Below, piece after piece: positions 650-20,848 of a DNA stretch of 43,485 bases; the stretch's first letter is position 1; the number at the start of each line of letters is the position of its first letter. The DNA comes from a virus. The DNA lies in IMG/VR virus record IMGVR_UViG_3300047586_000034, positions 1 to 43,485 of that record; one strand, written 5' to 3'. A program made the translations under genes and the position numbers. The notes under the pieces were generated by a model. That model made no database searches and was not told where the DNA came from. It saw only the letters and a program-made list of their open reading frames with translations.

Positions 650-1147
650 TTAGTTAATTATCTTTACTTTTTTAAAAGGGTATGCCCTGTACTTGCTTTT
701 CATTTCATCATAATTTTCAATGAAATAATCACGTGCAATACGTGCCTTTTCAATAGTTTCAAAACTGCCCAAATGATAACCTATTTTAAATCTCGTCACT
801 TGAACAGTCCATCTCTGGTGAACCTTAGTTATACCCCAATCAGGTTTTTTACTTCGATTAAGTAAGTTGTACCTGCGTGTAGTAAAGTGACAGTTTTGTG
901 GCGTGTAATTTCCGTCGTTATTTTCCCTGTCAATTTCAAGGTTCTTAGAGTAGCCGTTAGCCAGAGCCCAATCCCTAAATACAACAAATTGTCGCCATTC
1001 ATCACATACCGTGATGCCACGCCCGCCATAATATTTAAAATGCGGATGGTTGCAATTCGTGCATCTTTGAATCATTGAGCCCCATACTGCGTGAAGTGTG
1101 GTCTTTTGGCCTCTGATTGCTTCACCATGTTTAATATGTCCTGCCAT
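650..1147 (-). CDS. HNH homing-type endonuclease
   Basis: The 165-residue product shows the phage HNH/AP2-type free-standing endonuclease pattern: an N-terminal zinc-like segment (HAVWGSMIQRCTNCNHPHFKYYGGRGI), then CDEW, then LEIDRENNDGNYTPQNCHF, the usual D-x-x-N-x-x-G-x-Y-x-x-x-N-C signature of this family. The C-terminal part carries a short DNA-binding-like stretch (GYHLGSFETIEKARIARDYF). Such proteins nick or cut DNA to spread their own gene. ATG at 1147 is preferred over an in-frame TTG at 1153. The gene is more AT-rich than its neighbours, consistent with recent entry between the lysozyme-like gene and the gene at 397-639. Confidence 0.85.
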   Translation of the reverse strand: MAGHIKHGEAIRGQKTTLHAVWGSMIQRCTNCNHPHFKYYGGRGITVCDEWRQFVVFRDWALANGYSKNLEIDRENNDGNYTPQNCHFTTRRYNLLNRSKKPDWGITKVHQRWTVQVTRFKIGYHLGSFETIEKARIARDYFIENYDEMKSKYRAYPFKKVKIIN

Positions 1148-1180
1148 TGTCAATTATATAAAGCCCCGCCAGCAAATGGC

Positions 1181-5158: not shown

Positions 5159-5671
5159 CTAGGTAAAATACTCTTTATACTGGGCAGGTATTTGTTTAAG
5201 CAGTGCAGCCCTTATTTCTGCCTTTTCAATATCCCCGTCCTTGTCTATATCAAAAAGCGGGTTCTGCTTTGCCACAATGGCTGGGGTAATTACATACGTT
5301 TCGGGTTTGCCCACCGCAGCTGGCCAAAATATGCCGCAGTATAAGTCCACCCAATCCTTGTACCTGCCCTTAAATATGCCAAGGTGCTTTTTAACATAAT
5401 CCAACTGCTGCACGTTGCTCATGGCCGCCAGTGCCTCGCAGGTTGTGCCCAAAAAGCGGGCTGTGCTGGGCATAAACTGTATCAAACCTGTTGCCCCGCT
5501 TACCTTATTGCGGGCGGTGCTGTCCAGCGTGTGGCCAGTTTCAAACCACATGAGGAAAATTAAAGCGTTGGGGTCAACACCAAGATAAGCCGCAACACTT
5601 TTTACTTTAGCAATAAATGCAGCTTTGTTGACCTTTATTAAATCTTCAAAAATTAGTTTATCAGAATCCAT
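5159..5671 (-). CDS. Endolysin: lytic transglycosylase-like domain with EF-hand
   Basis: The 170-residue protein has a soluble lytic transglycosylase-like fold signature: Glu44 in FLMWFETGHT as candidate catalytic acid, then SGATGLIQFMPSTARFLG (59-75), typical of SLT/muramidase families. Residues 141-152 (DIDKDGDIEKAE) form a canonical EF-hand calcium loop. No signal peptide is present, so release would depend on the holin-like gene at 6391-6852. The gene overlaps the GIY-YIG gene by 19 bases. Its first 30 residues duplicate, with synonymous DNA changes, the remnant at 6263-6394, showing that this is a replaced 5' end. Confidence 0.85.
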   Translation of the reverse strand: MDSDKLIFEDLIKVNKAAFIAKVKSVAAYLGVDPNALIFLMWFETGHTLDSTARNKVSGATGLIQFMPSTARFLGTTCEALAAMSNVQQLDYVKKHLGIFKGRYKDWVDLYCGIFWPAAVGKPETYVITPAIVAKQNPLFDIDKDGDIEKAEIRAALLKQIPAQYKEYFT

Positions 5672-6285
5672 CCTTTTGATTTTTTAAGTTGCCCGCTACA
5701 TAACTGGGAAAGCATTGATTTTTTTAACTGGTATTTTGTTCTTAATTCAAACATTGTGCAAATTTCAATACCATAAGCGGCGTGGTAAAAGGTGTAAATG
5801 TCTTTTTTCTTGTGGCTTGAATTCTGCTTATTTCCCGTTATTATTTTTAGTATTGTCGTTTTGCTTAAATGGCTTCCCAGCCTATATTTGCGCATTTTTT
5901 TCTTTGTCGCATCTGACCTGCGCACGCCTTTATTTACTTTTCCTTTGTATTGTGCAGATCGTTCTTTTTTAAATTCCTCTGTACGCACGCAACCCAAACA
6001 GCTGCCAGCAGTTGGGGCACAATTAAAGAATGGCTGTAAGTTATCAATATGGAATTGTTCACGTGTTATGTTGAATTCTGGCAGGCAGGGTTCTAATATT
6101 GTAAATACCAAATCAGCCTCACCATATTTGTTGTAATGATTTTGCAGTTTTGGAGAGTGGTGTTTGTTTTCCCTTAAATCCTTTTTATGTCGTGCCCACC
6201 TGCTGCTTATGTTTACAGCACTACCAATATAAAAACGCTGTGGTTTTAACTGTGATTCAATCTTATAAATTCCGCTGAGTTGCAT
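5653..6285 (-). CDS. GIY-YIG homing endonuclease (copy 1, in endolysin gene)
   Basis: The 210-residue product starts with a GIY-YIG nuclease domain: GIY at residues 5-7, YIG at 19-21, Arg in SSRWARH, and the Glu-containing REQFHIDNLQPFFN. It is followed by a basic region with NUMOD-like DNA-binding repeats (RRSDATKKKMRKYRLGSHLS). ATG at 6285 matches the starts of the two paralogues; the longer TTG start at 6291 is less likely. It sits inside the 5' end of the endolysin gene and overlaps both the remnant and the rebuilt gene. AT-rich relative to its neighbours. It should cut a phage lacking the insert at the same place. Confidence 0.9.
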   Translation of the reverse strand: MQLSGIYKIESQLKPQRFYIGSAVNISSRWARHKKDLRENKHHSPKLQNHYNKYGEADLVFTILEPCLPEFNITREQFHIDNLQPFFNCAPTAGSCLGCVRTEEFKKERSAQYKGKVNKGVRRSDATKKKMRKYRLGSHLSKTTILKIITGNKQNSSHKKKDIYTFYHAAYGIEICTMFELRTKYQLKKSMLSQLCSGQLKKSKGWILIN

Positions 6286-6394
6286 ATCCAAAGGTACAAA
6301 ATATTAGCCACCGCACCCCCAAAAAAGCAGCCACGCTTATTACCTTGGCAATAAACGTGGTGCGGTTCTGTTGTATAAGTTCCTCGAAAATCAT
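6263..6394 (-). pseudogene. Truncated 5' remnant of the endolysin gene
   Basis: ATG at 6394 overlaps the stop of the holin-like gene as ATGA, the coupling expected for the original endolysin start. Its first 27 residues (IFEELIQQNRTTFIAKV, SVAAFLGV) match residues 7-32 of the intact endolysin (IFEDLIKVNKAAFIAKV, SVAAYLGV) closely in protein but much less in DNA. The match ends after LGV, and the frame then runs 16 unrelated codons to a stop inside the endonuclease gene. It is the cut-off beginning of the gene that the GIY-YIG element entered. Confidence 0.8.
6289..6323 (-). promoter_or_regulatory. Possible promoter of the GIY-YIG gene
   Basis: TACCTTTG (6296-6289) fits the Bacteroidota TAnnTTTG box and lies 3 bases from the ATG at 6285. 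A TTTG at 6323-6320 stands 23 bp upstream, slightly long for the -33 element. The two other GIY-YIG genes have similar boxes at the same distance (TACCTTTA before 7742, TATATTTA before 19899), so the element may carry its own promoter and give a nearly leaderless message. Confidence 0.4.
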
Positions 6395-7184: not shown

Positions 7185-7261
7185 TTCTTTTTTTTAAGGG
7201 GTGTTACTATTATGTTGTATTGCCGCTTGTAAATGCTATCACCCGTGATATTTTTTTCTGC
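7181..7261 (-). pseudogene. Orphan 3' remnant of the membrane gene interrupted by GIY-YIG copy 2
   Basis: In a frame different from the endonuclease, 26 codons read AEKNITGDSIYKRQYNIIVT then PLKKKK and stop at a TGA that overlaps the next ATG as ATGA. The tail resembles the -1 frame extension just before the endonuclease (VDSLKYNFDIRIQKVKK). It is therefore likely the old C-terminal end of the gene at 7806-8210, cut off by the insertion. The match is short, so this rests on context as much as on similarity. Confidence 0.5.
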
Positions 7262-7742
7262 TTACTTCCCTATAACTCCAAGCATCGTTCCCCTTCTTAG
7301 CCTTAGACATTTTCAATTTTGTATCGTCTGTCATTTTTAACTTGGAACTACTCATTTTTAATTTCGTATCATCTGAAAGAAAATGCTTTTTACCTTTTGC
7401 GTTCTGATTACCCTTCATTTTACTGATTGTCTCAATTGAGTGTTTTACCCCAATTCTACTCCCTGCCGTTAAACAGACATTGAAATATGGATTAAAAGCG
7501 TCAATAAAAAACTGCTCATTTCTAATCAGGTCGCACTTTTCACAACCGATAATTACTGAAAATATTAAATCTGATTCGCCGTATTTGTTAAAGTGGTTTT
7601 GGAGTTTGGGGTTGTAGTGTATTCCTTTTCTTAACTCACGTAAATGATCACGCCAGCGGCGTTGGATATTAACACCACTACCAACGTAAATTCTGTGTGG
7701 CTTTTTTAATGATTGAATTTTATATATACCGCTGATTTTCAT
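7239..7742 (-). CDS. GIY-YIG homing endonuclease (copy 2)
   Basis: A 167-residue protein with GIY (residues 5-7) and YVG (19-21), Arg in QRRWRDH, and NEQFFIDAFNPYFN carrying the usual Glu. The C-terminal half has NUMOD3-like repeats (SIETISKMK, DDTKLKM twice) for DNA binding. Strong similarity to copies 1 and 3 in the first 100 residues shows a common origin. It lies between the 3' end of the membrane gene and that gene's orphan tail. A TACCTTTA box stands 4 bases before the ATG. Confidence 0.9.
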   Translation of the reverse strand: MKISGIYKIQSLKKPHRIYVGSGVNIQRRWRDHLRELRKGIHYNPKLQNHFNKYGESDLIFSVIIGCEKCDLIRNEQFFIDAFNPYFNVCLTAGSRIGVKHSIETISKMKGNQNAKGKKHFLSDDTKLKMSSSKLKMTDDTKLKMSKAKKGNDAWSYREVSRKKYHG

Positions 7743-7805
7743 TACGTAAAGGTACTTATTTTTTAACCTTTTGGATCCTTATATCAAAGTTATATTTAAG
7801 CGAAT

Positions 7806-8210: not shown

Positions 8211-10111
8211 TACACCACATTTAACTGTATTGGGCTTATAACTTCATACTGCATATTTATTGCAAAGTTTTGGTCAAGCGTGCCTTTAATAACTGGGGCG
8301 TTAAACTTAACTGTATCATCCCCATTACACCCATCAAAGGTATTGCCAAACACAACAATATTGCCAGTGGCGGTAATATCGCTTTCGGTGGGTTCTTGCG
8401 GCAGGTTGATAAACCTAAAATAATTACCTGTAACAATGACATTTTTTATATCAACCACACCCGTCCCTCCAATTTCCACGGCGTGATATTTGGTTGAAAA
8501 CATACAGCCCTGTGCATTTAAGGCGTTATTTTGTATAATCATATTTTCAACCTTGCCACTATAAAAGTCAATAACGGGGTTGGCGGTGGCTGTGCCAAAC
8601 TCATTATCCATGTTGTTATTCCTTATGATTAAGTTCTTAATAGGGAACTGGTTAGAGTAGCACATAAAAATTGGCACGTTCACACCACTTACGCTGTTTT
8701 TCTTAAATGTATTGCCCTCAATAACCAAGTTATCAATACCATCCGTTTCATCCCCTGCACCACCCACATGATAAGGGGCACTTAAAAAGAAAAAAGCAGA
8801 CATACCGCTTACAGTGTTATTCTTAATAATTACATTTTTATAATGCAATTTCAAATCAGCTGTAAGGCAAAAGGTTACGCCGCCTGTCTGTTCCGAAATA
8901 ATGGTATTGTCTTCAAAAATGAAAAAATCAGCCTCCCCAGCGTGGCTTAAATCAACCATATCCCCTGTTGTTACCCAACCTTTGGTCGTGAAAAATTTAT
9001 TGCCCTTAATTATTGTGTTTATGTTCCTTATGCCTGCACCTTGGTTGCAATAGTTATGCTCATAAAATATATATTCGGCTGGCGGGTGGGTTGACATTGC
9101 GTCGCCATGCGCTGCCCCAAGGCCATCAAAATCGGGCATCGTAAGGCACTCCCCATTAAGGCGGTTGTGGTGTATGTATATTTCACGGGTTGGAATCCAG
9201 TTGCCCGATGGGTCAAGGGCGTGCCTGCCGCCAACAATATCACAGCCCACAATTTCGCCCTTGGCACAGCCGTACATAATAATGCCGTAATTATTTCCTG
9301 TTCTGTTTTGCTGGTATGCAAAGTCACGGGTCGTAAAGTTTTCAACCTTGAACTGCACGGTATTGCAAAGGAACATTGTGGTTATGCCTGCGCCAACAAT
9401 GTTGCAATCGTACATAAATACATTTTTGCAATAGTTTGTAAACACTGCTGTGTTGCCGTGTACCTGTGAACCGTTATAACGAAAACCACGCAGGGTAAAT
9501 TCAAGGCAATTCATTTTTGTAACCCTCACACCCCCCACGTAATCCAGCCTTATTGGTTCATAAAGCGTTATCACGTTCGTGGTGGTATTTACCACATATA
9601 CCTCGGCATGTTCGCCGCCGACATTGCCCTGCTGCCCCTTCCAAAATGCGCCAGTACCGCCAACATCGGTGGAGGTGGTCATAATTAAGTTATCACCCTT
9701 TGCCAGCGTAAGTGCCAAGGCATGTGATACGGTAATTTGTATATCGCCACGGCTGGGCGTAATGCTTTCCCATGTGCCGATTGAGCCTTGGAAAACAAGA
9801 AAGTAATTGCCAGTAAAATTTAAGGCGTTTATCCGTGAACCGTTGATAAACTCAATGTGGATATTTTTTGTAACTGTGACAGTTTGGCTGCTTACATATA
9901 CATACTCGCCCTTTGAAAAAACTATTGTTGCGCCCACGGGCAGGGCTGCGAACATTACATTTAACTCGGTATGGCTAAAATTCACTCCAGCTGTTATGCC
10001 AAAGTCCTCTACAAAATAAAACATTTGCGGATTTACATTCGCAAAATTATAGTTAAGGTCTGCCACAAACTCCTCACCCGTCTGCCCTATTGCCAGCGTT
10101 TCTACACTCAT
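8210..10111 (-). CDS. Right-handed beta-helix tailspike / receptor-binding protein
   Basis: The 633-residue protein has a short N-terminal attachment region, then a pectate-lyase-like start (GATIVFSKGEYVYVSS...IHIEFINGSRINAL) and many regularly spaced beta-helix rungs with Asn/Val/Ile ladders (VIIKNNTVSG, LVIEGNTFKKN, LIIRNNNMDNE, VIVTGNYF). This is typical of phage tailspikes that bind or cut surface polysaccharide. No catalytic residues can be assigned by eye. It overlaps the FN3 fibre gene as ATGA and the next membrane gene as TAATG. Phage tailspikes usually act as trimers outside the cell. Confidence 0.85.
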   Translation of the reverse strand: MSVETLAIGQTGEEFVADLNYNFANVNPQMFYFVEDFGITAGVNFSHTELNVMFAALPVGATIVFSKGEYVYVSSQTVTVTKNIHIEFINGSRINALNFTGNYFLVFQGSIGTWESITPSRGDIQITVSHALALTLAKGDNLIMTTSTDVGGTGAFWKGQQGNVGGEHAEVYVVNTTTNVITLYEPIRLDYVGGVRVTKMNCLEFTLRGFRYNGSQVHGNTAVFTNYCKNVFMYDCNIVGAGITTMFLCNTVQFKVENFTTRDFAYQQNRTGNNYGIIMYGCAKGEIVGCDIVGGRHALDPSGNWIPTREIYIHHNRLNGECLTMPDFDGLGAAHGDAMSTHPPAEYIFYEHNYCNQGAGIRNINTIIKGNKFFTTKGWVTTGDMVDLSHAGEADFFIFEDNTIISEQTGGVTFCLTADLKLHYKNVIIKNNTVSGMSAFFFLSAPYHVGGAGDETDGIDNLVIEGNTFKKNSVSGVNVPIFMCYSNQFPIKNLIIRNNNMDNEFGTATANPVIDFYSGKVENMIIQNNALNAQGCMFSTKYHAVEIGGTGVVDIKNVIVTGNYFRFINLPQEPTESDITATGNIVVFGNTFDGCNGDDTVKFNAPVIKGTLDQNFAINMQYEVISPIQLNVV

Positions 10112-18316: not shown

Positions 18317-18595
18317 TTTTTTGTAGTGTCATTTTTACCTTCATATTCTATTTATATTTATATTCTATTTATATTGTGTACAGGATACCCCCATCCTGTA
18401 CCCATCCTGTACCCATCCTGTGGTCACCCTGTCCCCATCCTGTATACAGGGTGTATGTTATGTCGCTGGTAATCAAATTATTAAAAATTCTATTTTACAT
18501 AATATTAGCTTTCATCCTGTGGGCATCCTGTACCCATCCTGTACCCATCCTGTACCCATCCTGTATACAGCGTGCCGCATCCTGTACCCACCATG
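18317..18595. other. Intergenic iteron region, candidate origin or partition site
   Basis: This 279-bp gap between two glycosyltransferase genes holds two phased arrays of an 11-bp repeat, separated by about 60 bp of AT-rich DNA, and a flanking AT-rich block (18341-18376) with the direct repeat ATATTCTATTTATATT at a 17-bp period. The AT-rich centre contains the 15-mer TTCTATTTTACATAA also found at 4341. No gene is supported. Origin of replication, centromere-like site or multi-operator are the best options. Confidence 0.7.
18376..18590. repeat. Phased 11-bp repeat arrays, unit CATCCTGTACC
   Basis: Array 1 has repeats starting at 18392, 18403, 18414, 18425 and 18436. Array 2 has repeats at 18513, 18524, 18535, 18546 and 18557, with another at 18578. 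Spacing is exactly 11 bp within arrays and 77 bp (7 x 11) between the last of array 1 and the first of array 2. The 18425 copy is degenerate. The fifth copy in each array continues into a near-palindrome CATCCTGTATACAG(G/C)GTG. An inverted half-site TACAGGAT stands at 18378. All sites thus face the same side of the DNA helix. Confidence 0.9.
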
Positions 18596-19306
18596 CTAAA
18601 GGTACAAATCTGCATCATTTCCTATTAACTCTCTGAGTTTCAATCCGTCAGCATCAGAAAGCATGTGAGGTATGAAACCATGCCCCGAGCCAATACCCTT
18701 GCGACCAGCCAGCCCTTTTATGCCAATCGACAGTTTTTTTTCAGTTTTGAACAAATTTACACTGCTGGCAAGGCGAAAAAATTCGTAATCGATAAATTTT
18801 TGTGTGTACAACATTTCAAAAAGAGGAAGTGCCGAAACTTTAAAAGCAGTTTGAAAAAGGCTTGACCACCCAGCATTTTGGTTTTCAATCCACCGCCGCA
18901 GACGTACGTTATAATAAATCGTGTGGGTTTCACCCCATATATCACAGCCGTTCATCCTGTCATACATCGCTTGCAGGTACTCTGGGCGGTAATAGTCGTC
19001 ATCCTCGATTATGTAAATAGCCTCAATCTGGCTGGGGTGGTAGGCCATGAGCAGAGCATCGATGCCAGCCTTCAGGTTACGTCCCTGTGTGTTTTGCCCC
19101 TCCACCCACATAGGCTCGGGATAAACCTTCAGTATATCCCACTGGTAATGAAATGCCCGTACAATAAAGTCGCTGCTGCGTGGTAGGGCATCATCAACAA
19201 TCACCCAGCACACATCACCTGTAAAACTTTGGCGGTGCATAAACTTGGCACATAAGCGCAGCTGTGCCTCCCTTGCCCCTGTTGGCGTGATAAGTGCTAT
19301 ACACAT
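18596..19306 (-). CDS. GT-A type glycosyltransferase, rebuilt 5' end
   Basis: A 236-residue protein: MCIALITPTGAREAQLRLC start, VCWVIVDDALPRSS, and EAIYIIEDDDYYRPEYLQAM with an acidic DDD motif as metal and nucleotide-sugar site, like GT2-family phage glycosyltransferases. The gene overlaps the GIY-YIG gene by 10 bases. Its first codons (IALITP) repeat the remnant at 19896-19940, so its present start came with, or survived, the endonuclease insertion. Confidence 0.8.
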   Translation of the reverse strand: MCIALITPTGAREAQLRLCAKFMHRQSFTGDVCWVIVDDALPRSSDFIVRAFHYQWDILKVYPEPMWVEGQNTQGRNLKAGIDALLMAYHPSQIEAIYIIEDDDYYRPEYLQAMYDRMNGCDIWGETHTIYYNVRLRRWIENQNAGWSSLFQTAFKVSALPLFEMLYTQKFIDYEFFRLASSVNLFKTEKKLSIGIKGLAGRKGIGSGHGFIPHMLSDADGLKLRELIGNDADLYL

Positions 19307-19899
19307 AAATTATTTTTTAACTGTTTCCTTACAATCCAAGCCTTTTTACCTGATTCACTCATTTTTTCTTTTGTTTTTTTAGTTGCTGGCTTATGTATAA
19401 TTTTTTTCTGTGCCTCACACATATTGTGCCTTGCACTTTCACTTCTCTTTTTTCCTAAATGACCTTTGCTTATATTCAGATTATGTTCTGGCGAGTGTTT
19501 TTTTCCAAGGTGAGCATCCCTGTTTAATTTTTTTGATTCCGCAGTGTGCTGTTTGCCAAAAAAATGATTTTTGTTTCCTTTTTTCGCTGCATTGACTGGG
19601 TTTTTACAACCAATGGAACTGCCAGCAACTTGGCAAATGTTAAAAAAAGGCTTATGCAAATCAATGAACTCCTGTTCTAATTTTAATAATTCTTCTTTCT
19701 TGCATTCAGTCAAAAGTCCAAACACCAAGTCGTCTTTGCCATACTTATAAAAGTGGTTTTGAAGTTTAATATTTTCATGCACCCCCTTGGTTAATCTTAT
19801 GGTGTGATCTTTCCACCTTCTTTCAATATTTACAGCCGCACCAATGTAAATGCGTGCTGGTTTTATAACGGATTGTATACAGTAAATGCCTGTTTTCAT
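19297..19899 (-). CDS. GIY-YIG homing endonuclease (copy 3, in glycosyltransferase gene)
   Basis: The 200-residue protein has GIY (residues 4-6) and YIG (18-20), Arg in ERRWKDH, and LEQEFIDLHKPFFN with the usual Glu. The C-terminal half is strongly basic with repeated NUMOD3-like motifs (HTAESKKLNRDAHLGKKHS, KRSESARHNM, KTKEKMSESGKKAW). ATG at 19899 fits the paralogues; an upstream in-frame ATG at 19914 is less likely. It sits between the cut-off start of a glycosyltransferase gene and its rebuilt start. A TATATTTA box stands 4 bases upstream of the ATG. Confidence 0.9.
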   Translation of the reverse strand: MKTGIYCIQSVIKPARIYIGAAVNIERRWKDHTIRLTKGVHENIKLQNHFYKYGKDDLVFGLLTECKKEELLKLEQEFIDLHKPFFNICQVAGSSIGCKNPVNAAKKGNKNHFFGKQHTAESKKLNRDAHLGKKHSPEHNLNISKGHLGKKRSESARHNMCEAQKKIIHKPATKKTKEKMSESGKKAWIVRKQLKNNLCV

Positions 19900-19940
19900 G
19901 GCATAAATATACAAAAATTAGGTGTAATTAGTGCAATCAT
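19896..19940 (-). pseudogene. Truncated start of the glycosyltransferase gene
   Basis: ATG at 19940 overlaps the epimerase stop as ATGA. The frame reads MIALITP and then diverges to a stop after 14 codons. The intact gene downstream of the endonuclease reads MCIALITPTG. The six shared residues IALITP use different codons at most third positions, so they are homologous but not a simple duplication. The short length limits certainty; the ATGA coupling and the parallel case at 6263-6394 strengthen it. Confidence 0.65.
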
Positions 19941-20848
19941 CTTACAAAGCTTTGGCCAAGGCGCTGGCGCACGGCACTGACCATGCGGCGCACGCCCTCG
20001 CGGGTAGTTATAAAATCGTTTATGCCCGTGAGTAGTATTTGCTTTTGCAGCGCTGGGCTTTTCGTTAGTGTCATCCTTGCTGGCAGGGGTGTCTCCACGA
20101 CATGCCGTTCGTAGTCAATCTCCAGAAGGTCGCAAATTTCCTCGGCCAGTGTCACAGTTTTTGTCACCTCTGGCGTGCCCACGTTTACCGTGTGGCAACC
20201 CTCAACGTGTGCCAGTTTTTCCAATACCCGTACGCCATCGTCCAAGTGCATCCAGCTGCGGGCGCTGCCACGGTGTACCGTGATGCATTCACCCTTTACC
20301 AGAGCCTCACAAAAACGTACCATGGCGCTGCGGTGGTCGCCAAAGGTTTCGTCCTCATGGTAGAACATAAACGGGCGCACGATGATTGCCTGCAAACCGC
20401 CACTTGTGGCATAATTCACCAGCACCTCGCCCATCAGTTTACTTACCCCATACAGGTTATTGGGGTGTATATCAAAGCGCTCTTCGTCCAACACCCCGCC
20501 GATGTTCCCGTATACTTCGCTGGTACTAAAAAATATCAGTTTTGCACCATACATACGACACAGCTGTATGAGGTTATTTGTGCCAGCAACATTGGTTTGT
20601 ATGGTAATGGCCTGTGCCACCTCACACGTTACACGGCTCACCATGGCCGCCATGTGGTAAACCACATCGGGTTCAAAGCTGCGGAACACCCAAGCAAGGT
20701 CAGTGGCACAGTTTATGTCAGCAGTTTTGTAGTTATCTCCAATACCCTGTACCAAATCAATTCCAAAAACGGTGTGCTTCATTTTACGCAGGTAAGGCAC
20801 AAGCACCTTGCCAATATTACCCTCGCTTCCTGTTACTAAAATCTTCAT
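19937..20848 (-). CDS. NAD-dependent epimerase/dehydratase (extended SDR)
   Basis: The 303-residue protein is an extended short-chain dehydrogenase: dinucleotide loop TGSEGNIG (6-13), Ser/Thr in FFSTSEVYG (107-114), and catalytic Tyr133/Lys137 in YGVSK, with RPFMFYH afterwards. Relatives epimerise, dehydrate or reduce nucleotide sugars in the cytoplasm. It would supply or change a sugar donor for the neighbouring glycosyltransferases. It overlaps the radical SAM gene by ATGA. Confidence 0.9.
   Translation of the reverse strand: MKILVTGSEGNIGKVLVPYLRKMKHTVFGIDLVQGIGDNYKTADINCATDLAWVFRSFEPDVVYHMAAMVSRVTCEVAQAITIQTNVAGTNNLIQLCRMYGAKLIFFSTSEVYGNIGGVLDEERFDIHPNNLYGVSKLMGEVLVNYATSGGLQAIIVRPFMFYHEDETFGDHRSAMVRFCEALVKGECITVHRGSARSWMHLDDGVRVLEKLAHVEGCHTVNVGTPEVTKTVTLAEEICDLLEIDYERHVVETPLPARMTLTKSPALQKQILLTGINDFITTREGVRRMVSAVRQRLGQSFVR

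Follow-up and report, generated by a model that had tools for sequence, protein, structure and literature searches.

In fungal mitochondria, mobile ORFs that encode an endonuclease (mORFs) replace the ends of the genes they enter, as in atp6 of Allomyces macrogynus and in atp6, atp9, cox2 and nad3 of Glomus (PMC3630166). The native gene end is 91–98% identical to that of a close relative, compared with 64–81% for the inserted end (PMC3630166). It is the C-terminus that is replaced in these mitochondrial cases, and the nuclease in Glomus atp6 is of the LAGLIDADG type. In T4-like phages, the free-standing Seg and Mob nucleases are encoded by stand-alone genes, mostly lying between co-oriented genes and often with stop–start overlaps (PMC2988022). 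Most T4 Seg nucleases are GIY-YIG enzymes, seven of the free-standing nuclease genes of T4 are characterised as cassettes lacking promoters, and the presence of mobE or mobA inside a gene splits that gene into two coding regions (PMC2988022). The GIY-YIG catalytic domain is also that of I-TevI (1mk0, 1ln0), whose gene lies in a group I intron. As far as we found, the only genes so far described as having a terminus replaced are those of fungal mitochondria, at their ends; open-access papers, in which absence is weak evidence, were searched and yielded no account of a phage gene with a replaced start.

The DNA analysed here, called the window, is a 43,485-base phage record. Its terminase is nearest to the terminases of Bacteroides, Parabacteroides and Phocaeicola phages, and every gene treated here lies on the minus strand (Table 1). 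It is proposed, with a probability of roughly 0.8, that a free-standing GIY-YIG element inserted in the start of a glycosyltransferase gene, bringing a leader with a promoter box, the nuclease gene and a replacement start, and that this arrangement is the product of a homing cycle.

Like the mitochondrial mORFs, the locus combines an endonuclease gene inside a host gene with an apparently foreign replacement of the cut-off end. It differs from them in being a phage element, with a GIY-YIG nuclease and a promoter-like box, that replaces the N-terminus together with the start codon; because the start codon and not the C-terminus is replaced, the element is not filed among the mORFs. With the Seg and Mob genes it shares a stand-alone phage nuclease gene, but it carries a promoter-like box and gives its target a replacement start rather than splitting it. 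Gene splitting of the Aeh1 mobE/nrdA type yields two complementary fragments, whereas the target gene here is full-length. The catalytic domain resembles that of I-TevI, although no group I intron was detected at the locus.

Table 1. Positions of the genes, abandoned starts and promoter-like boxes discussed in the text.
Feature	Position	Strand	Remarks
Nucleotide-sugar epimerase gene, upstream of the insertion	19937..20848	minus	Pfam Epimerase, E 1.5e-36; PHROG nucleotide-sugar epimerase
Abandoned glycosyltransferase start, reads MIALITPNFCIFMP then stop	19896..19940	minus	Position and reading match the real start of insert-free relatives
Promoter-like -7 box TATATTTA, Bacteroidota TAnnTTTG type	19904..19911	minus	-12..-5 of the homing endonuclease ATG
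GIY-YIG homing endonuclease gene (HEG), 200 aa, intact	19297..19899	minus	Pfam GIY-YIG, E 4e-8; NUMOD3, E 1e-6
Glycosyltransferase-like gene, 236 aa, replacement start MCIALITPTG	18596..19306	minus	Homologues in about 80 viral loci
Third GIY-YIG HEG, same family	7239..7742	minus	Box TACCTTTA at 7754..7747
Abandoned start of lysozyme-like gene, MIFEELIQQNRTTFIAKVISVAAFLGVR, then WLIF after a 6-base gap	6301..6394	minus	83/97 bases identical to L020
Second GIY-YIG HEG of the window	5653..6285	minus	Box TACCTTTG at 6296..6289
Lysozyme-like (endolysin) gene, replacement start MDSDKLIFEDLIKVNKAAFIAKV	5159..5671	minus	Compared with L020

The TGA of the epimerase gene overlaps, as ATGA, the ATG of a short frame at 19940. 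This frame (19940..19896) is 14 codons long and ends in a TGA at 19898–19896, which overlaps the HEG ATG at 19899 in a second ATGA. Homology within the frame is limited to MIALITP, and the remainder is insert sequence. The HEG has a G+C content of 34%, against 48% for the window; its PHROG match is homing endonuclease, and the profile of its family matches the I-TevI catalytic domain (1mk0, E 2.6e-16). Its domains mark the nuclease as a typical GIY-YIG homing enzyme.

The ATG of the glycosyltransferase-like gene, at 19306, sits within the last codons of the HEG. This gene has no family match in Pfam or PHROG, but it aligns over its full length with its relatives and has not been left as two complementary fragments. 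The IALITP segment is common to both starts, with synonymous differences in five of its six codons. The earlier note on this DNA had described the order exactly as it stands: an epimerase stop overlapping a short MIALITP frame, a GIY-YIG gene, and an intact glycosyltransferase beginning MCIALITPTG in other codons. An 11-base tandem repeat, CCCATCCTGTA, forms two arrays (18390–18444 and 18513–18590) between this glycosyltransferase gene and a second one.

When the remnant was compared with 62 other gene starts before the window HEG, one of these scored equally (28 against a maximum of 28), so the seven-residue match by itself is no more than suggestive. What decides is where it lies, exactly at the real gene start of insert-free relatives. 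Single-sequence searches of viral contigs and GenBank phages found no close relatives of the glycosyltransferase, whereas a profile search succeeded and yielded 80 viral loci. At 41 of these, some of them near-copies of each other, the previous ORF overlaps the glycosyltransferase ATG in a 4-base ATGA, regardless of what the previous gene is. An epimerase homologue with more than 50% identity directly precedes the glycosyltransferase at 13 viral loci, none of which (0/13) has the insert. The most informative record, that behind loci L020, L100 and L102, has a radical-SAM gene, the epimerase, the glycosyltransferase and a second glycosyltransferase in the same order as the window, with an ATGA overlap and the glycosyltransferase start MIALITPTGARP. 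The prediction in the earlier note, that without the insert the epimerase would be followed directly by the glycosyltransferase with an ATGA overlap, is thus borne out. One insert-free locus, L006, has a related GIY-YIG nuclease gene at 9008–9544, about 2.4 kb downstream of its glycosyltransferase gene.

No insert-free glycosyltransferase locus contains a separate short frame, the pattern that the earlier note had named as contrary to an insertion. Correspondingly, it is highly improbable that the MIALITP frame has a function of its own, as a leader peptide or in coupling, with no insertion involved. The ATGA overlaps do join the frame to both the epimerase and the HEG, and the equivalent frame in a second phage contig (L121) is equally long, at 14 codons, with the same ending. 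However, the insert-free relatives have the full gene at this place, and the second half of the frame is the sequence of the insert, including the promoter box. The short frame may nevertheless aid coupling as a side effect.

Phage introns often carry GIY-YIG nucleases, and one alternative takes MIALITP as a first exon, spliced to the rest of the gene across a mobile group I intron or another splicing element. The downstream gene has a complete start of its own, so splicing would duplicate the peptide. Furthermore, the sequence outside the nuclease gene amounts to no more than about 20 bases, too short for an intron core, and an Rfam search of the window matched no family. On these three grounds a group I intron was ruled out, and a splicing element of any kind is very unlikely.

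The same insertion is present at the same site in L121, where the gene upstream is a different one. The TGA of that gene is followed by ATGATTACTTTAATAAC, a remnant reading MITLIT, and a MITLIT start also occurs in another locus of the glycosyltransferase family (L140). A short A/T-rich leader with a box follows the L121 remnant, and then a GIY-YIG gene of 184 aa. After this gene the sequence reads ATGTGTATTGCC, and the L121 glycosyltransferase begins ATGTGTATTGCCCTTATTACTCCGACAGGT, which encodes MCIALITPTG. If the homologous site is ignored, the six-codon L121 remnant is indistinguishable from chance. With the insert present in the window and L121 and absent from more than 40 glycosyltransferase loci, the site shows presence/absence variation.

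A third carrier, L132, is a contig end that opens with the same right junction, AAACAATAAATAATAAATTATGTGTATTGC. The DNA pattern of the replacement start matched only L121 and L132 in all of IMG/VR, from which the window's own record was possibly left out. In a tree built without their first residues, the three carrier glycosyltransferases do not form one clade, and their grouping was rejected (p-AU 0.0006). Because the gene bodies are not one clade, the start appears to have travelled with the HEG. Similarly, among the 69 HEGs surveyed below, that of L121 is the best match to the C-terminal half of the window HEG, the half that is normally the DNA-binding part of such nucleases. It is suggested, therefore, that start and nuclease move together between distant genes of the glycosyltransferase family. 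In codon-level identity over the first 12 codons (36 bases) of the glycosyltransferase, the window is not closest to L121.

All of these data are metagenome assemblies, which is what might raise the suspicion of an assembly artefact or chimera. Against this, contigs that are independent of one another show the same layout, as do genes with no relation to each other, and no ORF is broken, so that an artefact is barely credible.

The parallel with an endolysin gene of the same phage, drawn in the earlier note, is a real one: the lysozyme-like gene at 5159–5671 also has a stranded start, a HEG and a new start. The gene begins at 6394, breaks off about 30 codons in, and restarts at 5671 with MDSDKLIFEDLIKVNKAAFIAKVKS. 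A Pfam search of its product returned no match, and in PHROG it resembles baseplate hub, peptidase and transglycosylase profiles; given this mixture, the product may be a tail-associated or a free lysozyme-like protein. At this gene L020 is a close insert-free relative. Identity to L020 is 83/97 bases (86%) for the stranded start, 65/105 (62%) for the working start and 307/390 (79%) for the rest of the gene, and the lower identity of the working start is significant (p 2e-4 and 8e-4). Judged by this comparison, the gene's native start is the useless, stranded copy, and the start in use is foreign. The difference has the same sign as in the mitochondrial mORFs, with a native end close to the relative and a divergent inserted end. 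No donor lineage of the lysozyme-like start stood out among 33 relatives.

These identities bear on the alternative that needs no donor, in which the start became duplicated in place on arrival of the nuclease gene (template switching is one possible route) and its copies diverged afterwards by drift. A single event would suffice for this, the two copies encode nearly the same peptide, and at the glycosyltransferase there is no close relative by which the duplication could be separated from a donor origin. Drift after duplication fits poorly, however, with a lysozyme-like gene in which the useless copy is 86% like the nearest relative and the copy under selection only 62%. It also fits poorly with the recurrence of the MC start together with a HEG in three glycosyltransferase genes that fail to form a single clade. 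In-place duplication is consequently considered unlikely. A donor-derived replacement start, as the earlier note had proposed, is the reading supported here, and the two further phage contigs back the view that the start travels with the HEG. At the glycosyltransferase, the evidence for a donor is the ATGTGTAT(A/T)GC start common to three distant genes; how far the donor-derived stretch extends is not measurable there, as the searches yielded no insert-free relative close enough.

The third HEG of the family was considered as a further gene-start case and was ruled out by its position between genes: it splits no gene and duplicates no start, and L020 has an uninterrupted intergenic region at the corresponding place. 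An HNH endonuclease gene near the left end of the window (650–1153, minus strand; PHROG E 3e-39) is a probable fourth homing nuclease gene in this 43-kb phage.

A profile built from the window nucleases and that of L121 retrieved 80 viral loci, and a search of 84,980 bacterial and archaeal genomes gave no confirmed relative. The survey set consisted of 69 distinct nuclease genes (loci L182–L261 and the window, window copies included). In most of the 69, the ATG of the next gene lies at -23 to +7 bases from the nuclease stop. Stranded starts precede seven of the 69: the two window cases, L121, L261, L193, L223 and L216, of which the last four represent four further target genes. Their remnants are 29 codons long in L261, about 24 in L193, 11 in L223 and seven in L216. 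Scores against the maxima of null sets of mismatched pairs were 105 versus 27 for L261, 70 versus 21 for L193 and 87 versus 23 for the lysozyme-like gene. L223 (31 versus 23) and L216 (23 versus 18) are less secure, though still above their own nulls, and the glycosyltransferase cases in the window and L121 depend on the homologous site.

Most of the 69 HEGs have no detectable remnant. Weak survey matches at L206, L233, L220, L228 and others scored near the chance range or gave unconvincing alignments, and for this reason they were left out of the remnant count. Stranded and working copies share 58–72% DNA identity, and their longest exact runs do not exceed 9 bases. The remnant carriers are scattered across the nuclease tree, which is weakly resolved. 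In a mirror test for stranded gene ends at 60 HEG loci, no C-terminal case was significant, and all remnants are N-terminal. For the target genes of L261 and L193, the search for insert-free relatives found none.

The inserted A/T-rich leader of the window HEG spans about 19919..19900. A TAnnTTT box at -13 to -11 of the ATG is present in 24 of the 69 HEGs, in 21 of them at exactly -12, compared with 8 of 332 other ORFs of the same loci (Fisher p 4e-14). Among the 24 HEGs with a box, the A/T-rich block sets in abruptly near -22, roughly the point at which the stranded starts stop, and this boundary is taken to be the element's left end. The box is present in six of the seven remnant carriers, compared with 18 of the 62 other HEGs (p 0.006).

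The -7 element of the Flavobacterium sigma-A promoter reads T-12 A-11 H H T-8 T-7 T-6 G-5, counted from the transcript start (PMC6847099; PMC9723704). The 24 HEG boxes occupy the same positions counted from the ATG; G is absent at -10 and -9, which agrees with Flavobacterium, but A is more frequent than G at -5. As the positions from the ATG equal those from the transcript start in the sigma-A element, transcription is predicted to begin at the A of the ATG, and the HEG transcripts are predicted to be leaderless. Leaderless transcripts are rare in flavobacteria, at 5.5% (PMC9723704).

What the sequences show directly is the insertion, the empty sites, a second phage with the same insertion, replacement starts that diverge, and a box whose position is fixed; cutting, homing, protection of the new start, promoter activity and the leaderless transcript are inferred from them. 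Under the proposed insertion mechanism, the element would have entered just after the seventh codon of the glycosyltransferase gene. Three components would make it up: some 20 bases of A/T-rich leader that hold a promoter box of the Bacteroidota type, the nuclease gene itself, and a new beginning for the gene it enters (ATG TGT AT(A/T) GC...). The old start would thereby be stranded before the nuclease gene, and the rest of the gene would acquire a new start fused to the nuclease tail, so that the enzyme would still be made. Expression of the glycosyltransferase probably relies on translational coupling with the nuclease frame or on the element's own promoter. In a co-infecting phage, the nuclease would cut the conserved start of the insert-free gene, and repair from the donor would copy the leader, the nuclease gene and the rewritten start together. 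Being written in synonymous codons, the donor start should escape both cutting and recombination with the stranded copy.

More broadly, the survey raises the possibility, for which we judge the odds to be about even, of a family of phage homing elements specialised in gene starts, each combining a GIY-YIG nuclease with a Bacteroidota promoter for leaderless transcripts and with a rewritten start that resists cleavage, and retargeting to unrelated genes by acquiring a new replacement start. By bringing a new start, a selfish nuclease gene can occupy conserved coding sequence while the gene stays unbroken, without an intron or intein, and conserved gene starts become accessible targets for homing nucleases. 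The element would be hard to delete cleanly, because loss of the nuclease together with its start would break the gene. Each insertion leaves a readable fossil, and gene callers are likely to be misled by the stranded starts. The same solution at gene ends in fungal mitochondria and at gene starts in phages suggests convergence.
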